Assembly (NCBI GenBank): GCA_902610655.1 | Contig: CACLWL010000003.1 | Coordinates: 1 to 64,000, forward strand | Direction: 5' to 3' | Length of the DNA stretch: 64,000 nucleotides | Source of the DNA: an uncultured Pelagibacteraceae bacterium | Lineage (GTDB): Bacteria > Pseudomonadota > Alphaproteobacteria > Pelagibacterales > Pelagibacteraceae | In this document: in pieces, positions 20,298 through 42,737 of the stretch | How the letters are laid out: every line of letters starts with the position of its first letter | Numbering within the stretch: position 1 is the stretch's first letter | Notes under the pieces: generated by a model | Told to the model about the DNA's origin: nothing | Databases searched by the model: none | Seen by the model: only the letters and a program-made list of their open reading frames with translations | Translations under genes and position numbers: made by a program

Positions 20298-20872
20298 TTG
20301 TTTAAATAATCCTTTATCTTTTTTATTGGTAGGCCCATAATTGTATTCTCATCCCCCTCTATTTTTTCAAATAAGTTTTTACCCTCTCCCTCTATTTGAT
20401 AAACATTATAAGAGTATAGTGCTTCATCTGAAATTTTAGATAAATAATACTTAAGATCACCATCTGACATTTCTTTCATGGTTAGTTCTGCTTTATCCGT
20501 ATAATTCCATATCATTGAGCCATTTTTTGATATACAAACTGAACTTATTAAATCATGCTTTTTTCCATTAAGTTTTTTTAATATTTCTAACGCTTCTTTC
20601 CTGTTTTCAGGTTTGGAGATTAATTCTCCATTTAAATCAATTACACTATCAGCTCCAAGAACTAAGTCTTGATCCATTTTTTGACTGACTTTATTCGCTT
20701 TTAGTTCTGCTAAGTTTTTGGATATGATTTCTGGAGAAGCCCCTTCTTTAATAAGACTAGCTTTTATTGGTTCTTCGTCCACATTAGATGGTTTAACCAA
20801 ACAATTAATATTATTTTTTTTTAATATGTTTCTTCTAACTTTGCTTTTAGAAGCTAAAATAATATCAGGCAT
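20294..20872 (-). CDS. maf: Maf family nucleotide pyrophosphatase
   Basis: ILASKSKVRRNILKK; GADSVIDLNGELISKPE. Confidence 0.95.
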   Translation of the reverse strand: MPDIILASKSKVRRNILKKNNINCLVKPSNVDEEPIKASLIKEGASPEIISKNLAELKANKVSQKMDQDLVLGADSVIDLNGELISKPENRKEALEILKKLNGKKHDLISSVCISKNGSMIWNYTDKAELTMKEMSDGDLKYYLSKISDEALYSYNVYQIEGEGKNLFEKIEGDENTIMGLPIKKIKDYLNK

Positions 20873-21689
20873 TTTTATTACTTATTTCATAAATTTTGAT
20901 GACGGATGCGGCTGTCTCTTCAACAGATTTTCTACTTACATCGATAACTGGCCATTTAAACTTTATAAAAGTATTTTTAGAACTTTCAACTTCATCTTGT
21001 ATTTTTTGTAAACTTGTATATTTCTGATTACCCGTTTCTTTTAAACTAGTCATTCTATTTTTTCTAATTTCAGCGAGTCTTTTTGGTTCTGCTATTAAAC
21101 CTATTATACATTTTTTAGATTTATTTTTTTTAATATTTTCTGGTATAGAATTTTTATTTACAATTGGTATATTAGAAACTTTATAGCCTTTATTAGCTAA
21201 ATATATTGAAGTTGGCGTTTTGCTGGTTCTGCTAACACCAATCAATATTATGTCGGATTTTTCAACATCACTTATTGCATTTCCATCATCATGATTCATA
21301 GTAAATTGAATAGCATCTATTTTTTTATAATAATCATCATCTAATATATGTTGTCTACTTGGGACATTTAACGAATTTTGATTTAATAATTTCGAAAAAT
21401 TATTTATCAAATCTCCTAAGACACTAAAACACGGAATATTGTTTTTTTGTGCTTTACTATTTAAAAATGTGCTCAGTTTACTATCAACAATGGTATAAAG
21501 AATTATATTTTTACGGTTGTTTTTACAATTTTCTAATATTTTTATTATTTGATTTTCAGTTCTAGTAAAAGAAAAATGGTTTGTTTTGTAATTAAAATTA
21601 TTAAATTGCGCTTTTAGAGCTAAGAATATCCTATCAAGTGTTTCTCCCGTTGAGTCAGAAATTAAGTATATTTGATATATATTACTCAT
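20865..21689 (-). CDS. ppsR: PEP synthase/PPDK regulatory protein (kinase-pyrophosphorylase)
   Basis: LISDSTGETLDRI; IGVSRTSKTPTSIYLANKGYK. Confidence 0.95.
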   Translation of the reverse strand: MSNIYQIYLISDSTGETLDRIFLALKAQFNNFNYKTNHFSFTRTENQIIKILENCKNNRKNIILYTIVDSKLSTFLNSKAQKNNIPCFSVLGDLINNFSKLLNQNSLNVPSRQHILDDDYYKKIDAIQFTMNHDDGNAISDVEKSDIILIGVSRTSKTPTSIYLANKGYKVSNIPIVNKNSIPENIKKNKSKKCIIGLIAEPKRLAEIRKNRMTSLKETGNQKYTSLQKIQDEVESSKNTFIKFKWPVIDVSRKSVEETAASVIKIYEISNKNA

Positions 21690-21961
21690 GTATAATTTGT
21701 AAATTAATAATTAATAATAAACAAATTTTTTCAAAAGTAGAATATCTACTTATTTTGTAGGTAAAAAACCAAGCTAATCAACAATTTTGGTCACATGTAT
21801 AAATTTTATCAACAATATATAACTATTTTAATAAAAGTTAATTTATACAGTAATTATGGATTTTTATCCTGTGGAAAAAAAATATAAAAAGTGTTGATAA
21901 CAGTTTATCACCATAATTAACAAGGCAAAATACTAATAATATAGTTTAATATATATTTTAT
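21690..21961. other. oriC: Probable chromosomal replication origin (oriC)
   Basis: AT-rich non-coding gap between divergent ppsR and hemE; DnaA-box-like 9-mers TTATCAACA (21806-21814 +; 21892-21900 -), TTTTCCACA (21870-21878 -), weaker TAATCAACA (21775-21783) and TTATCACCA (21905-21913); hemE-flanked origin as in Caulobacter. Confidence 0.85.
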
Positions 21962-22975
21962 ATGTCTCCTTTACAAAGTGTTATTTATAAAAAAAAGAAA
22001 TCAATTAAACCAATATGGTTAATGAGACAAGCAGGAAGATATTTGCCTGAATTTAGAAAAATAAGAAAAAAAAATGCAGATTTTACAAAATTATGTTTGA
22101 ATGCTCAAAAGATTAAAGAAATAACTTTACAACCAATTAAAAGATATGACTTAGACGCTGCAATAATTTTTTCAGATATTCTTATGGTTCCCTATGGTCT
22201 AGATCAATCTGTCAAATTTAAAAAAAATTTCGGTCCTAGTCTTGGCCCTATAAGTTTAAATCAAATTAAAGAATATCCTAAATTACAGTTTAAAAAAAAT
22301 TTAGATTCGATTTATAAATCTATAAATTTAGTTAAGAATGATAGCTTAATTAGCAAAAAAGATTTAATTGGTTTTGTAGGAGGTCCTTGGACTTTACTAA
22401 TTTATATGCTTAATAAAAATTCACCTAAAAAGAAATTAAAAAAGATTTTATCTGATAAACCTTTAATTTTAGATATGATTAAATATATTAGTGTTTTTTT
22501 AGAGCAGCATATTAAATATCAAATTAAAAGTGGAGTGGATATAATTCAAATATTTGACAGTTGGGCAGGATTAGTAAAAGAAAAAGATCTGGAAGATTTT
22601 ATTTATAGTCCTACCAAAAAATTGGTAAAATTTACAAAATCAGTAAACAAACCTTGCATATGTTTTCCAAGAAATATAAAAAACTATTATGAATACATTA
22701 AAATAGTTAAACCCAATGTTATAAGTATTGACTATAATGTTAATCCAGAAAAAATTGTTAAAAAAATAAATATTCCTGTTCAAGGCGGTATGGATCCTAA
22801 AGTTTTGTTAACAAATAAAAAAAATTTGGAAAAAGTTGCAAATCATTATTTAAATATTTTTGAAAATCATCCTTATATATTCAATTTAGGACATGGAGTA
22901 CTCCCGCAAACAGACCCAGATATGGTAGATTATTTAATTAAAATAATAAAAAAATTTAATGGAAAATCATCCTAA
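21962..22975 (+). CDS. hemE: Uroporphyrinogen decarboxylase
   Basis: PIWLMRQAGRYLPEFR. Confidence 0.98.
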   Translation: MSPLQSVIYKKKKSIKPIWLMRQAGRYLPEFRKIRKKNADFTKLCLNAQKIKEITLQPIKRYDLDAAIIFSDILMVPYGLDQSVKFKKNFGPSLGPISLNQIKEYPKLQFKKNLDSIYKSINLVKNDSLISKKDLIGFVGGPWTLLIYMLNKNSPKKKLKKILSDKPLILDMIKYISVFLEQHIKYQIKSGVDIIQIFDSWAGLVKEKDLEDFIYSPTKKLVKFTKSVNKPCICFPRNIKNYYEYIKIVKPNVISIDYNVNPEKIVKKINIPVQGGMDPKVLLTNKKNLEKVANHYLNIFENHPYIFNLGHGVLPQTDPDMVDYLIKIIKKFNGKSS

Positions 22976-25744: not shown

Positions 25745-27394
25745 TTGGATAATATTTTTTATAAAAAAATTGAGCAGTTATTTAAAAACAAACAATTTGA
25801 AAGTATAAAATTTGAAATAAATCTGCTTGGCGAAGAAGAGAAAAAAGATCCTTATTTATACAATATTCTGGGTATTATAGCGGCCACAAACAAAAAAAAT
25901 GATGAGGCCATAAATTACTTTAATTTAGCGGTAGAGATTGACAAATATTATCTTCATAGTTTAATAAATCTATCGAGATTATCTTACACAAATAAAGATT
26001 TTCAAAAAATAATAACTCTACTTAAAAATTATCATTTAAAATTTCCTGAAAACGACAGAGTTATTTTAAATTTAGCGGATCTTTGTTTTAGTGCAGGTTT
26101 TTTAGAAGATACTATTTATTTTCATAAAAAACTCGTTAAAACTGGTAAGTACCGCATGAATGATTTAGCTGCACTAATTTTTCTCTTAAATTATTCAAAC
26201 AAATATTCAGACGAAGAATATAAAAGATATTGTAAACTTTATGATGCCACGCTCAGCAAAAATAAAACTAATTATAATATTTTAAATGACGAACATGATA
26301 AAGCTAAAATTGGTTTTTTATCTAATGATCTTAGAGGTCATTCAGTGGGGTATTTTTTAAAAGATTTTATTAAAAAACTTAATGAAAAAAACTTTAAAAC
26401 AATAGCTTTTAATTTATTTAAAAAAAATAAAAATGATCTTTTCACTTCTGAACTAAAAAATTCATTTACCGAATGGTATGATGTTTCGGATCTGAATGAT
26501 AAAGATTTAAGTGATTTAATATATTCTAAAAAAATTTACTATCTGGTTGACCTTGGTGGATATTCAACTGGTAATAGACTACAAATCTTTAAAAATAAAC
26601 CAGTACCTATCCAGTTATCATGGCTAGGTTATTGTAATAATACTCATGTTGATGAAATTGATTATATGGTTATTGATGAAAATGTCGTGCCAAAAAAAAA
26701 TGGTTTTAGTGATAAGAACTACATTAAAATGCCAAAAATTTGGAATGCCTTTTCAAAACTAGATGATTTAGAAGTTAATGAATTACCATTTATTAAAAAT
26801 AAAATATTTAATTTTGGATGCTTCAATAATTTTCTGAAAATATCAGATGAAACAATTGAATTATGGTGTGAAATATTAGATAAATTTTCTAAATCAAACT
26901 TAATTTTAAAAAATTCAGTTACTGTAGATAAAAATTATAAAAAATATCTTATCAAAAAATTTAAAAATAAAATTGACGAAAATAGAGTTTTTATACTTAA
27001 TTACGAGAAAAACAAAAAGAAACACTTGGAACAATACTATAATATTGATGTATGCCTAGACACATTTCCCTATAATGGTGTTACCACCACTTTCGAGTCT
27101 TTGTGGATGGGTGTACCAGTTATAACTTTAAAAGGTGAGAGGTTTGTTTCTAGATGTGGTTACAGTATAAATGAAAATGCAGGTCTAAAAAATTTCATTG
27201 CTGAAAACAAAAATAAATATTTGTCTATAGCATTACAATATATGTCTGAGACAAACATAAAAAAATTGATAAATTTGAGAAAAAAATTAAGACCTCAATT
27301 ACTAAAGTCTTCGTTATTTGATACAAATAGTTTTGCTGAAAATTTTATCACTGAATTAAATAAAGTTTATGAAAAAAATAAGACTAATTCATAA
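25745..27394 (+). CDS. TPR / O-GlcNAc transferase (SPINDLY, GT41)-like glycosyltransferase
   Basis: TTG start; TPR-like N-terminus; IGFLSNDLRGHSVGYF, PVPIQLSWLGYCN, DTFPYNGVTTTFESLWMGVPVITLKG. Confidence 0.88.
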   Translation: MDNIFYKKIEQLFKNKQFESIKFEINLLGEEEKKDPYLYNILGIIAATNKKNDEAINYFNLAVEIDKYYLHSLINLSRLSYTNKDFQKIITLLKNYHLKFPENDRVILNLADLCFSAGFLEDTIYFHKKLVKTGKYRMNDLAALIFLLNYSNKYSDEEYKRYCKLYDATLSKNKTNYNILNDEHDKAKIGFLSNDLRGHSVGYFLKDFIKKLNEKNFKTIAFNLFKKNKNDLFTSELKNSFTEWYDVSDLNDKDLSDLIYSKKIYYLVDLGGYSTGNRLQIFKNKPVPIQLSWLGYCNNTHVDEIDYMVIDENVVPKKNGFSDKNYIKMPKIWNAFSKLDDLEVNELPFIKNKIFNFGCFNNFLKISDETIELWCEILDKFSKSNLILKNSVTVDKNYKKYLIKKFKNKIDENRVFILNYEKNKKKHLEQYYNIDVCLDTFPYNGVTTTFESLWMGVPVITLKGERFVSRCGYSINENAGLKNFIAENKNKYLSIALQYMSETNIKKLINLRKKLRPQLLKSSLFDTNSFAENFITELNKVYEKNKTNS

Positions 27395-28172
27395 CCTACC
27401 AAGATCTGGTGGCACAATTATATCAAAATGCATAGGGGTTCAGAGAAACGTAATATTATTAAGTGAAATCCATGAGCAAGGAGAATTAATACGTGAAAAA
27501 ATGGGATCAGATCCTAATATGGCAAATCCATTGAAACAAGCTTTGAAGTTGAGTAATTTTTTTAACGATAAAGAGAAAGAAAAAATTCAAAAGTCAAATT
27601 ACAATTTTATAGATAAAATTAACTTAATTTATGAAAAAGCAGAAAATAAAGGAAAAAAATTAGTTATTAGGGATTGGTCTTATATTGACTTTATAGGTCT
27701 CCCTTTTTCTAAACCAATATACCAAAACTCTCTGATAAAAAAACTTGAAAAAGATTACGAAATCAAAAATATATATATTTTAAGACATCCATTAGAGAAT
27801 TTTTTTAGCATTAATAGTTTAAAAATATTAAATAATAAAATCCCTCTTGATTTCTTTTTAAAAAGTTATTCTCTATTTTTCAAAGAAGCTGCTAAAGCAC
27901 GGACTTATTCATATGAAAAGTTTACATTAGACCCATATAAAGACTTAAGAAAGATATGCGATAACATTGAAATAGAATTTGATAAAAAATATTTAAACAA
28001 TATTGGAAATATTGAAATTACAGGAGATCACAAAGCTATTAGTTCTAATACAGTACTACCTAGTGAAGATAAAATAATGAAATTTATAAATGAAGATATT
28101 TTATTAAAAATAAAAAAAAATAAATTATATATAAATTTAATTGATGAATTAAAAGATTTTTATAGGTCGTAG
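27369..28172 (+). CDS. Sulfotransferase-like protein
   Basis: RLIHNLPRSGGTIISKCIG P-loop-like PSB motif; overlaps preceding ORF by 26 nt. Confidence 0.75.
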   Translation: MKKIRLIHNLPRSGGTIISKCIGVQRNVILLSEIHEQGELIREKMGSDPNMANPLKQALKLSNFFNDKEKEKIQKSNYNFIDKINLIYEKAENKGKKLVIRDWSYIDFIGLPFSKPIYQNSLIKKLEKDYEIKNIYILRHPLENFFSINSLKILNNKIPLDFFLKSYSLFFKEAAKARTYSYEKFTLDPYKDLRKICDNIEIEFDKKYLNNIGNIEITGDHKAISSNTVLPSEDKIMKFINEDILLKIKKNKLYINLIDELKDFYRS

Positions 28173-28184
28173 AAAAGTTTTTAA

Positions 28185-29018
28185 TTATCTTAAATATCCT
28201 AGTTCCTTCATTTCGTAAAAAAATTTTTTTTCTATTTTTTCTGAAAGATTTTTATTAAGGTTCATTTTCCAATTTCCACTCTTGCCATTTCTAAAAAATA
28301 ACTTACCATAACCTTTTTCTATAAAACCATTTTTTTTTTCAAGATTTTGAAGATTATCAAAACTTGTTATTTTTATACACTCACTGATTCGATCTCTGCT
28401 TATTTTTATATCTAAAATTGAGTTTAGATATTTTATAATTTTCTCAAAAGTTAAAAATGTGTTATTAATCAAATCTTCATACTTAATAACCAAAACATTT
28501 ATACCCTTGTAATTTTTCCATGACTTGTAGTGATCACTCCAAGATCCTAGCAATGTAAAATTGTATTTTTTACCATCAATAATTCCCTCTTCAAAAGTAT
28601 CGCTTTTTAATAAATTTTCAGCAACTTCACTGTGAGTTTTTTGAAGATGATCAGAATAAGATATTACAATATCTCTTGGATCTCTAACCAAATATATTGC
28701 TCCTAAAGATTGATTAGCGTTTGTAAAAGGATTTCCATCAATTGTACACATTGCATTATGAGTTTTGAGGAATATTTTTGAATTGTTTAAATTTATATAT
28801 GTCTGCATTTGAAGCCAACTTTTTGATAGATTATTAAAATTAGAATAATCTATATCAAGCTTCTTAATAATAGAATTTTTTGGAAAAAGCGAAAACGGTA
28901 TCATCATTTTATTAATATCAAATGTGTCCGGATCCTTATGATTTCCTAAGTATGCAGACAAAAATAATTTCAGCCAAGTATTTCCACTTTTTGGATATGA
29001 GGCTAACCAAATAATCAT
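28185..29018 (-). CDS. Sulfotransferase family protein, paralogue of 2935..3768
   Basis: MIIWLASYPKSGNTWLK; LGAIYLVRDPRDIVIS. Confidence 0.87.
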   Translation of the reverse strand: MIIWLASYPKSGNTWLKLFLSAYLGNHKDPDTFDINKMMIPFSLFPKNSIIKKLDIDYSNFNNLSKSWLQMQTYINLNNSKIFLKTHNAMCTIDGNPFTNANQSLGAIYLVRDPRDIVISYSDHLQKTHSEVAENLLKSDTFEEGIIDGKKYNFTLLGSWSDHYKSWKNYKGINVLVIKYEDLINNTFLTFEKIIKYLNSILDIKISRDRISECIKITSFDNLQNLEKKNGFIEKGYGKLFFRNGKSGNWKMNLNKNLSEKIEKKFFYEMKELGYLR

Positions 29019-32295: not shown

Positions 32296-32933
32296 TCGAT
32301 TCGAATATTTTAGAATATAAAAATCTTGAGCCTCTAAATGTTTCACGTGAAACATTTCCGCAGTTTGAGGCTTACTGTGAATTATTGAAAAAAGAAAACA
32401 GAAAAATTAACCTAATTAGCAAATCAACCGAGAAAGAAATAAGGAAAAGGCATATTGTAGATTGTGCACAAACTATTGATTTTATTGATGAAAATTATAA
32501 TATTTGTACTGATATTGGATCTGGTTCAGGTCTCCCAGGGATAGTCATTGCGATCATAATGAGGATAAAAAAACCAGGTATGAAATTTCATCTTTATGAA
32601 AAGAGCTTTAGAAAGTGTGAATTTCTATTCTCTGTAAAGGAAAAACTAGATTTAAATGCTGAGGTCTATCAAAAAGATATATTTAAAGAAAGAAATTTAG
32701 AAACAGATTTAATTATCACTAGAGCATTTAAACCTCTGCCTATCGTTTTAGATCTTGCTGAGAAAAACTTCAAAAAATTTAAGAGTGTTATAATTTTTTT
32801 AGGAAAAAATAAAAAAGACTTTTTAAAAAAAGCTTTGTCAAATTGGAGCTTCACCTATAAAGAAAAAAAAAGCATCACAAGCTCAGAGTCGAAAATAATC
32901 AAAATATGTAATTTAAAAAAAAATGAAAAATAA
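32292..32933 (+). CDS. rsmG: 16S rRNA (guanine527-N7)-methyltransferase RsmG
   Basis: NVSRETF, DIGSGSGLPGIVIAI. Confidence 0.96.
   Translation: MIDSNILEYKNLEPLNVSRETFPQFEAYCELLKKENRKINLISKSTEKEIRKRHIVDCAQTIDFIDENYNICTDIGSGSGLPGIVIAIIMRIKKPGMKFHLYEKSFRKCEFLFSVKEKLDLNAEVYQKDIFKERNLETDLIITRAFKPLPIVLDLAEKNFKKFKSVIIFLGKNKKDFLKKALSNWSFTYKEKKSITSSESKIIKICNLKKNEK
32339..32354. promoter_or_regulatory. parS: parS centromere-like site (TGTTTCACGTGAAACA)
   Basis: Exact 16-bp palindrome matching the ParB/Spo0J parS consensus, ~570 bp upstream of parA and inside rsmG. Confidence 0.95.
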
Positions 32934-33723
32934 AATAATTTCAGTAATTAACCAAAAGGGAGGGGTAGGCAAAACAACAACCGTTATTAATTTAGCTGCA
33001 GGCTTAGCTTCTAAAAATAAAAGAGTATTAGTAATAGATCTGGATCCACAAGGTAATGCTACAACTGGTCTAGGCCACTCCAATATTGATGGATCTGATA
33101 AGAATATCTATAATGTTTTAAATGGTACAAAAAGTATTTCTGAAATAATTCAAAATACTCAAATTGATAATTTAGATATAATCACTTCAAACGTTGATCT
33201 TTCAGGGCTAGAAGTAGAAACCGCTGGTGATAATGGAAGAGCCTTCATTTTAAGAGATAAATTATCTTTGTTTTTAAATGAAAAAAGCTTAAATTACAGC
33301 CACATTTTTATTGATTGTCCTCCATCTTTAAGCTTGCTTACTATTATGGCTTTGGTGGCATCAAAATCATTAATTGTTCCTCTTCAAACAGAATTCTTTG
33401 CTTTGGAGGGTTTAACACAATTAGTTAAAACCATTGATAGGGTTAAGGAAAGCCTAAATTCAGATTTGTCAATTAGAGGTATAATTTTAACAATGTATGA
33501 CAAGAGAAATAAGCTTTCTAGTCAAGTTGAAAAGGAAGCAAGAGATTATTTTAAAGATAAAGTTTATAACACTGTAATTCCAAGAAATGTTAGATTGTCA
33601 GAGGCGCCCTCTCATGGAATTCCAGTTTTAATATATGACAAAACTTGTCCTGGAAGTAAATCATATTTTAGCTTAGCTGAAGAATTCATAAATCAGGAAA
33701 AAATAATGGAGAGTGCAGCTTGA
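32923..33723 (+). CDS. parA: Chromosome partitioning ATPase ParA
   Basis: INQKGGVGKTTTVINLAAGLA. Confidence 0.98.
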   Translation: MKNKIISVINQKGGVGKTTTVINLAAGLASKNKRVLVIDLDPQGNATTGLGHSNIDGSDKNIYNVLNGTKSISEIIQNTQIDNLDIITSNVDLSGLEVETAGDNGRAFILRDKLSLFLNEKSLNYSHIFIDCPPSLSLLTIMALVASKSLIVPLQTEFFALEGLTQLVKTIDRVKESLNSDLSIRGIILTMYDKRNKLSSQVEKEARDYFKDKVYNTVIPRNVRLSEAPSHGIPVLIYDKTCPGSKSYFSLAEEFINQEKIMESAA

Positions 33724-34568
33724 GTATTTTTAAACCAAAAAAAGGTTTAGGTAGAGGAATATCTTCGTTAATAGGAGATACTAAAAATACGTCAATTAAG
33801 AATAAAATTTCTTTAAGTGAAATAGTTAGAAGTAAGCTCCAACCAAGAAAAATTTTTAATAAAGATAGCTTAGATGAACTCACAAATTCAATTAAAGAAA
33901 GAGGTGTAGTTCAGCCAATAATAGTTAGGAAATCAAAGGAATTTGACAATAAGTTTGAAATTGTTGCTGGTGAAAGACGATGGCTTGCATCTCAAAATGC
34001 AGGATTGAATGAAATACCAGCTGTTATTATTGAGGCCGATGATATCAAAGCACTAGAATTTGCTATAGTTGAAAACGTACAAAGAAGTGATCTAAACCCA
34101 ATAGAGGAAGCAGCGGGTTACAAACGTTTAATGGATGAATTTGCTTATGATCAAGAAAAAGTTGGAAAATTTATAGGAAAGAGCAGAACACACATAGCAA
34201 ATTGTTTAAGATTGTTATCTTTGCCAAAGGATGTAATTAATTTAGTTGAGATAGGTAAAATTACACAAGGGCATGCTAAAGTATTGGTGGGTATGGATAA
34301 TGCAAATCTTCTGGCAAAAAAAATTGTTGATAAAAAATTATCGGTAAGGCAAACAGAGAATTTAGTAAATTTATTTAAAAAACCTAAAAAAATTAAATTA
34401 CTTTCTAAAGATACCAATCTAATTGATCTTGAGGAAAACTTAATTAATAAGTTGGGTATTAGGGTTTCTATTAAAAATAAAAAAAATAATTCTGGCTCAA
34501 TATCCTTTAATTATAAAGATCTCGATCAGTTAAATAAGATAATTTATATAATAAAAGCTAATTATTAG
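33720..34568 (+). CDS. parB: Chromosome partitioning protein ParB
   Basis: ParB N-terminal motif, EIVAGERRWLASQNAGL, ENVQRSDLNPIEEA. Confidence 0.98.
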   Translation: MSIFKPKKGLGRGISSLIGDTKNTSIKNKISLSEIVRSKLQPRKIFNKDSLDELTNSIKERGVVQPIIVRKSKEFDNKFEIVAGERRWLASQNAGLNEIPAVIIEADDIKALEFAIVENVQRSDLNPIEEAAGYKRLMDEFAYDQEKVGKFIGKSRTHIANCLRLLSLPKDVINLVEIGKITQGHAKVLVGMDNANLLAKKIVDKKLSVRQTENLVNLFKKPKKIKLLSKDTNLIDLEENLINKLGIRVSIKNKKNNSGSISFNYKDLDQLNKIIYIIKANY

Positions 34569-42158: not shown

Positions 42159-42737
42159 ATGAGTAAATCAGCTGTTTATATATATAATTATAAAGTTTTA
42201 TATAATATTATTTTCGAGATTAAAAACTTTTTTAACTTTGATTTATTCTATAATGAAAGTGAAAAATCTATCTTTGAAGAGCAAAAAAAGAGAGGTGATA
42301 ATAATTTTATTATAATAACCCATCAAAAATTAAAAAATAATTCTATAAACAATAAACAAATAATTACAGTAGAAAATTACCCTTTAAACCTTCTGAGTTT
42401 GATTGAAAAAATTAATTCAAATTTATTAACGCAACAGTATAATTTTCAGTCAAATATTAATATAGGTGACTATTTATTAGATTTAAATTCAAGAATTATA
42501 TCATTAAAGAATAATAAACTTAAACTTACGGAAAGGGAGATCCAAATTATACTATTTTTAAAAAAACAAAAACAGCCTTCAAATATAAACATACTGCAAA
42601 AAGAAGTTTGGGGTTACGCAGAAGAGTCCGAGACACATACTGTAGAGACCCATATTTATAGGTTGAGAAAAAAAATAAAAAAAAATTTTGATGATCAAAG
42701 CTTCATAAAAAGTGATAAAAAAGGTTATTTCATATAG
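42159..42737 (+). CDS. OmpR/PhoB-type winged-helix DNA-binding protein with degenerate receiver domain
   Basis: C-terminal LTEREIQIILFL...LQKEVWGYAEESETHTVETHIYRLRKKI; N-terminal half lacks clear phospho-acceptor context. Confidence 0.85.
   Translation: MSKSAVYIYNYKVLYNIIFEIKNFFNFDLFYNESEKSIFEEQKKRGDNNFIIITHQKLKNNSINNKQIITVENYPLNLLSLIEKINSNLLTQQYNFQSNINIGDYLLDLNSRIISLKNNKLKLTEREIQIILFLKKQKQPSNINILQKEVWGYAEESETHTVETHIYRLRKKIKKNFDDQSFIKSDKKGYFI

Follow-up and report, generated by a model that had tools for sequence, protein, structure and literature searches.

Gene neighbourhood of the ppsR/hemE intergenic region

The window analysed here is a stretch of 64,000 nucleotides from an uncultured Pelagibacteraceae bacterium. 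Within it, positions 21690-21961 form a non-coding gap of 272 bp between an open reading frame on the minus strand (20865-21689) and one on the plus strand (21962-22975). The left boundary gene was identified as ppsR, encoding a Kinase-PPPase (DUF299/COG1806; Pfam PF03618, 2.6e-88), and the right boundary gene as hemE (Pfam URO-D, 9.6e-83; TIGR01464, 4.7e-90). According to Pfam and NCBIfam, ppsR is followed leftward by maf, aroE, coaE, and dnaQ, and hemE rightward by hemH, hemJ, and rho and then by mnmE, mnmG, gidB, parA, and parB. The AT content of the gap is 82%, a value matched by just 1.1% of 272-bp windows, compared to a window mean of 71%. The open reading frame bounds, the base composition, and the gene assignments thus agree with an earlier note on this DNA, in which a non-coding, AT-rich gap between leftward and rightward genes was described and taken to be the probable chromosomal oriC. 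An exact match to parS, TGTTTCACGTGAAACA, of which 0 are expected, is located at 32339-32354 (+), where gidB begins, immediately to the left of parA and parB (32923-34568, +). It lies 10.4 kb to the right of the gap, in line with the approximately 10.5 kb given before. In the interval between rho and mnmE (25745-29018), we additionally observed genes for a family-41 glycosyltransferase-like protein (25745-27394), a 267-aa protein without Pfam match (27369-28172), and, on the opposite strand, a sulfotransferase (28185-29018).

The origins of Caulobacter (Cori) and of Rickettsia prowazekii are located between hemE and COG1806/DUF299 (PMC1914354). This published boundary corresponds to hemE/ppsR in the window, as the earlier note had proposed for Cori, and the location of the gap is therefore inherited. 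The gap shows the characteristics of an oriC of the hemE/COG1806 type, i.e. the two bounding genes, an AT content above the average of the window, and a cluster of DnaA boxes that is unusual for the genome and conserved in relatives. A nearby parS-parAB locus is likewise shared with the Caulobacter and R. prowazekii origins.

DnaA boxes in the window and in related genomes

Individual boxes are degenerate, and there is no exact box in the gap of this species. We found TTATCAACA in both orientations, at 21806-21814 (+) and 21892-21900 (-), and TTTTCCACA at 21870-21878 (-), each with 1 mismatch to TTATCCACA; weaker boxes with two mismatches start at 21756 (-), 21775 (+), and 21905 (+). The boxes that had been listed before are found at their stated positions. 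A lone one-mismatch box means little, because such boxes are common throughout the AT-rich window (24 found compared to 20.4 +/- 4.8 in shuffles). Three of them inside one 272-bp gap correspond to a Poisson P of ~1e-4, and the gap is the densest box cluster of the window.

A scan of genome contigs, combined with a same-genus search, yielded more than 100 loci from Pelagibacteraceae. None of the 108 loci with both genes lacks the gap, whose length is 261-291 bp; some of these loci represent one genome reached by both searches. From these loci, we obtained 95 distinct gaps and reduced them to 39 representatives with less than 80% identity; the representatives are related to each other, and counts among them are not independent events. 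The median identity of the relatives' gaps to that of the window is 55%. Across the 39 representatives, there are on average 2.72 exact copies of TTATNNACA per gap compared to 0.39 in dinucleotide shuffles, and TTATCCACA with at most one mismatch occurs 55 times compared to 3.1 (shuffle maximum 7). When the consensus was derived separately for each box position, it converged on the DnaA box, namely TTATCCACA at 21870 and TTATTCACA at 21914. Conservation of the 9-mers among relatives, on which the earlier reading had been made to depend, is therefore evident: the consensus TTATNNACA recurs at several fixed positions, and the spacing from 21870 to 21892 and from 21892 to 21914 is exactly 22 bp each in 39/39 representatives.

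The best conserved box is TAATTAACA at 21914-21922 (+; family consensus TTATTCACA), which is found in 92% of the representatives and would be proximal to the DNA-unwinding element (DUE). Its conservation per position is T77 T74 A97 T100 T90 C56 A97 C100 A97. Next in conservation is TAATCAACA at 21775-21783 (+; family consensus TTATTAACA) on the ppsR side, present in 90%. These two sites had been missed or rated as weak before. Among the boxes that had been named, TTTTCCACA at 21870-21878 (family consensus TTATCCACA; 85%), with which a phased array starts, and TTATCAACA at 21892-21900 (family consensus TTATAAACA; 67%) are conserved, but the good match at 21806-21814 (26%) and the weak box TTATCACCA at 21905-21913 (+; 2 mismatches; a box in 21%), in tandem with box 21914, are poorly conserved. 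Additional sites are a conserved weak box at 21698-21706 (-; family consensus TTATAAACA; 59% of the 39 match TTATNNACA with at most one mismatch), a box site near 21794 (-; 46%), and a weak box at 21881-21889 (-; family consensus TTATTAACT; 28%), which is degenerate in the window. The imperfect inverted pair GTGTTGATAACAGTTTATCACC does span 21891-21912 as claimed; as a key element it was rejected, since its right half is a box in just 21% of the representatives.

A phased box array and the predicted unwinding side

Together with the weak middle box at 21881, the boxes at 21870 and 21892 form an array with an 11-bp period, i.e. one helical turn per box. The 53-bp block from box 21870 through box 21914 has hardly any insertions or deletions, in contrast to the flanking blocks, all of which vary. 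Box 21914 is followed by a short GC-richer stretch, AGGC (21923-21926, +), of which position 4 past the box is C in 23/39 representatives, and then by the DnaA-trio-like triplets ATA CTA ATA ATA (21930-21941, +), which read 3'-TAT GAT TAT TAT-5' on the other strand. The first CTA begins 11 nt past box 21914, hence after a spacer of 10 nt. Triplet phase was apparent across the 39 representatives: within positions 8-21 after the box, 68 of 75 C residues fall on positions 8, 11, 14, 17, and 20, and 43 of 52 C-C distances within single sequences are multiples of three. Taken by itself, the longest NTN run is a weak signal (z of 2.2 over shuffles). The third triplet is frequently CAA.

The order of elements in the bacterial basal unwinding system (BUS) is box, short GC-rich stretch, and DnaA-trios, with the trio reading 5'-CTA-3' on the complementary strand (PMC8287927, PMC8235120). 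A GC-rich element of 4-5 bp has been described (PMC8235120), and the spacer between box and trios peaks at 10-13 bp in bacteria (PMC8287927). The gap resembles the BUS of Bacillus subtilis in the order and polarity of box, GC-richer spacer, and 5'-CTA/ATA-3' triplets (3'-NAT-5' on the bound strand), and the 10-nt spacer to the first CTA lies within the published range. We also applied the published rule on box mismatches, a distance of 16 bp, and a tandem box with at most 4 mismatches (PMC8287927). At 21930-21941, there are at least three triplets in phase whose central base is A on the bound strand (NTN on the hemE strand), and a box with no more than 2 mismatches and at most 16 bp from the trios is provided by TTATCACCA at 21905-21913, 16 bp from 21930. 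The tandem box 21914 is within the permitted 4 mismatches, and the family consensus there has 1 mismatch. Unlike the BUS, SAR11 gaps contain few perfect 3'-GAT-5' trios and often CAA as third triplet; in addition, the proximal box of the window has 3 mismatches, and unwinding is here a prediction from sequence. From box 21914, the GC-richer stretch, and the phased triplets, it follows that melting would begin at ~21930-21961, beside hemE. We accordingly annotated a predicted DUE at 21923-21961, up to the hemE start codon, based on its position relative to the box and the triplets.

In E. coli oriC, directly repeated low-affinity boxes with helical spacing lie beside a strong box, and the DUE-proximal box is aimed at the DUE. 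The SAR11 gap has a comparable layout, with directly repeated, presumably low-affinity boxes at helical spacing beside a strong box, and the predicted DUE-proximal box faces the DUE. Unlike in E. coli, we found no IHF site and no GATC/SeqA logic in the SAR11 gap, and the flanking genes are different.

Uniqueness of the gap and its distance from dnaA

Two complete genomes of the same genus, G012 (1.34 Mb) and G082 (1.44 Mb), were used for chromosome-wide analyses. A core nucleotide profile from which the window and its close relatives had been left out gave one match per genome, with values of 1.8e-9 for the gap of the window and 2e-8 and 6.3e-8 for the complete chromosomes; the next best was 1.2. 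Of the 155 and 141 intergenic regions compared in the two complete relatives, the gap has the top rank by TTATNNACA count.

This uniqueness bears on the possibility that the gap is a mere shared promoter and that its conserved 9-mers are sites through which DnaA or another regulator acts on the two genes. Indeed, ppsR and hemE diverge from the gap, and DnaA doubles as a transcription factor in Caulobacter. A dual promoter, however, needs neither the order of box, GC stretch, and triplets nor the 22 + 22 bp phasing, and the gap is the sole box cluster in each of the two complete chromosomes, near the GC-skew minimum, beside parS-parAB, and in the position published for alphaproteobacterial origins (PMC1914354). 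We therefore consider a promoter-only role very improbable, although promoter activity may coexist with origin function.

The cumulative GC skew of both complete relatives has its minimum 29-31 kb away from the orthologous gap; its maximum is separated from the gap by about half a chromosome. The uncorrected minima are displaced by ~30 kb to one side, to about the midpoint between the hemE gap and dnaA; gene orientation is probably the cause of this shift. Raw cumulative GC skew was thus rejected as a locator, being too coarse. A fit of the third-position skew with gene-strand correction placed the origin at +1.5 kb in G082 (bootstrap -20 to +32) and at +34 kb in G012 (bootstrap -98 to +49), with a weak and broad GC skew (R2 of 0.03-0.04). 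Minima of the intergenic-only skew were inconsistent (-96 and +39 kb), and third-position T/A skew was uninformative in the two complete relatives. A GC-skew minimum lying elsewhere had been named as evidence against an origin in the gap; in the two complete relatives, the gap lies within ~30 kb of the skew switch, with the terminus opposite. GC skew agrees with the gap, and taken alone it could equally fit the neighbourhood of dnaA.

The dnaA gene is found 62-64 kb from the gap on the hemE side (G012:C1:1198465, G082:C1:971827). In many bacteria the origin lies beside dnaA-dnaN, and the hemE gap would then be a relic, for which the position of the raw GC-skew minimum, midway between the two loci in both genomes, could be cited. 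Yet the 7 kb around dnaA contain just one and three scattered boxes with at most one mismatch in the two complete genomes, and, for G082, the gene-corrected fit speaks for the hemE gap (+1.5 kb; -20 to +32 kb). A relic would also not be expected to hold an indel-free block of 53 bp across sequences of 55% identity. We regard an origin at dnaA as the most improbable reading, even more so than a promoter-only gap. With the origin placed at the hemE gap, 62-64 kb away, dnaA does not mark the origin of these SAR11 genomes. The genome from which the window stems has a single dnaA, on a different contig and followed by a putative dnaN. Domain IV of the encoded DnaA carries the canonical RDHTTV box-reading helix, and the protein matches the solved full-length-type DnaA 8btg (7.8e-92); standard TTATCCACA-type specificity is therefore expected.

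Interpretation of the gap as the probable chromosomal origin

Overall, the location, the conserved boxes, the uniqueness per chromosome, and the GC skew support the initial proposal of a probable oriC between ppsR and hemE. We consider it highly likely that the gap at 21690-21961 as a whole, given its maintenance in relatives and its box ranking, is the DnaA-dependent chromosomal oriC at the ancestral alphaproteobacterial hemE/COG1806 position. An oriC at an expected place is in itself nothing unusual for a bacterium; the conserved anatomy described here makes the finding more useful.

The sequences themselves show the location and conservation of the gap, the box array and its spacing, the phase of the triplets, uniqueness per chromosome, a fit with the GC skew, and a canonical DnaA, and we infer DnaA binding, a melting site, helicase loading, and actual initiation at the gap. 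In the proposed course of events, domain IV of DnaA would contact boxes on either side of the gap; its chief targets would be the helically phased minus-strand array at 21870/21881/21892 and box 21914, which faces it on the plus strand. Starting at box 21914, a DnaA filament would then grow over AGGC, engage the ATA-CTA-ATA-ATA triplets on the adjacent strand, and melt the AT-rich region at ~21930-21961. The helicase would be loaded at the opened DNA, forks would depart in both directions, and ParB at parS, 10.4 kb away, would subsequently move the new origin.

SAR11 is among the ocean's most abundant bacterial groups, and replication-based growth estimates, such as those from ori:ter coverage or methylation gradients, depend on the origin position. 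The papers that we found locate the SAR11 origin by GC skew or coverage only, which here leaves an uncertainty of tens of kilobases. In the literature searched, a partial set with DoriC outside it, we found no description of a SAR11 oriC at base level, and a database prediction may well exist. With the predicted origin narrowed to 272 bp, its boxes named, and a melting site predicted, DnaA binding, unwinding, and coverage become testable at base level in many relatives.

Candidate regulatory sites in the SAR11 gap

In comparison with the Caulobacter and R. prowazekii origins, which likewise consist of an AT-rich gap with several DnaA boxes but exceed 400 bp (PMC1914354), the SAR11 gap is shorter (272 bp), its boxes are much more degenerate, GANTC is nearly absent, and neither CtrA (TTAAN7TTAA) nor IHF sites are enriched. 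In the 39 gaps, we counted 13 TTAAN7TTAA sites compared to 9.4 +/- 3.0 in shuffles. This fits the reported absence of a ctrA ortholog from Pelagibacter (PMC2877005), and the gap was therefore not classified as a CtrA-silenced origin of the Caulobacter type. It also provides a natural example in which the CtrA switch is missing from an alphaproteobacterial origin. Searching with WATCAANNNNTTR gave 3 IHF sites in the 39 gaps compared to 3.8 +/- 2.0 expected; this consensus is weak, and a divergent site is possible.

The CcrM methylation motif GANTC is nearly excluded, with 0 occurrences in the 39 representatives and a single one in the full set of 95 gaps, compared to 0.28-0.58 per 272 bp of AT-rich intergenic DNA in the two complete relatives. 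The genomes encode GcrA and a CcrM-like protein that has a RAMA domain, and CcrM has been described in SAR11 (PMC3973325). A gradient of GANTC methylation from ori to ter, with ori placed by GC skew (PMC9516812), and V-shaped coverage with a single origin (PMC9589681) have also been reported for SAR11. We tentatively propose, as a possibility somewhat short of even, that the SAR11 origin is stripped down to the ancestral hemE/ppsR site with a phased DnaA array and a trio module, lacking CtrA and IHF control and purged of GANTC despite the presence of CcrM and GcrA. If so, initiation would be under the control of DnaA alone and blind to the methylation cycle.

In the second family of the order (f2), no match to ppsR at E <= 1e-15 was found in 12 of 12 genomes (G101-G112); the hemE/ppsR origin boundary may therefore be lost or altered there. 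Finally, the window encodes, at 42159-42737 (+) and ~20 kb from the predicted origin, a 192-aa protein that carries a DNA-binding domain of the OmpR type and in which a receiver domain was not detected. Similar short OmpR-type proteins are encoded ~17-18 kb from the gap in the two complete relatives, and the 192-aa protein is possibly an origin-linked regulator.
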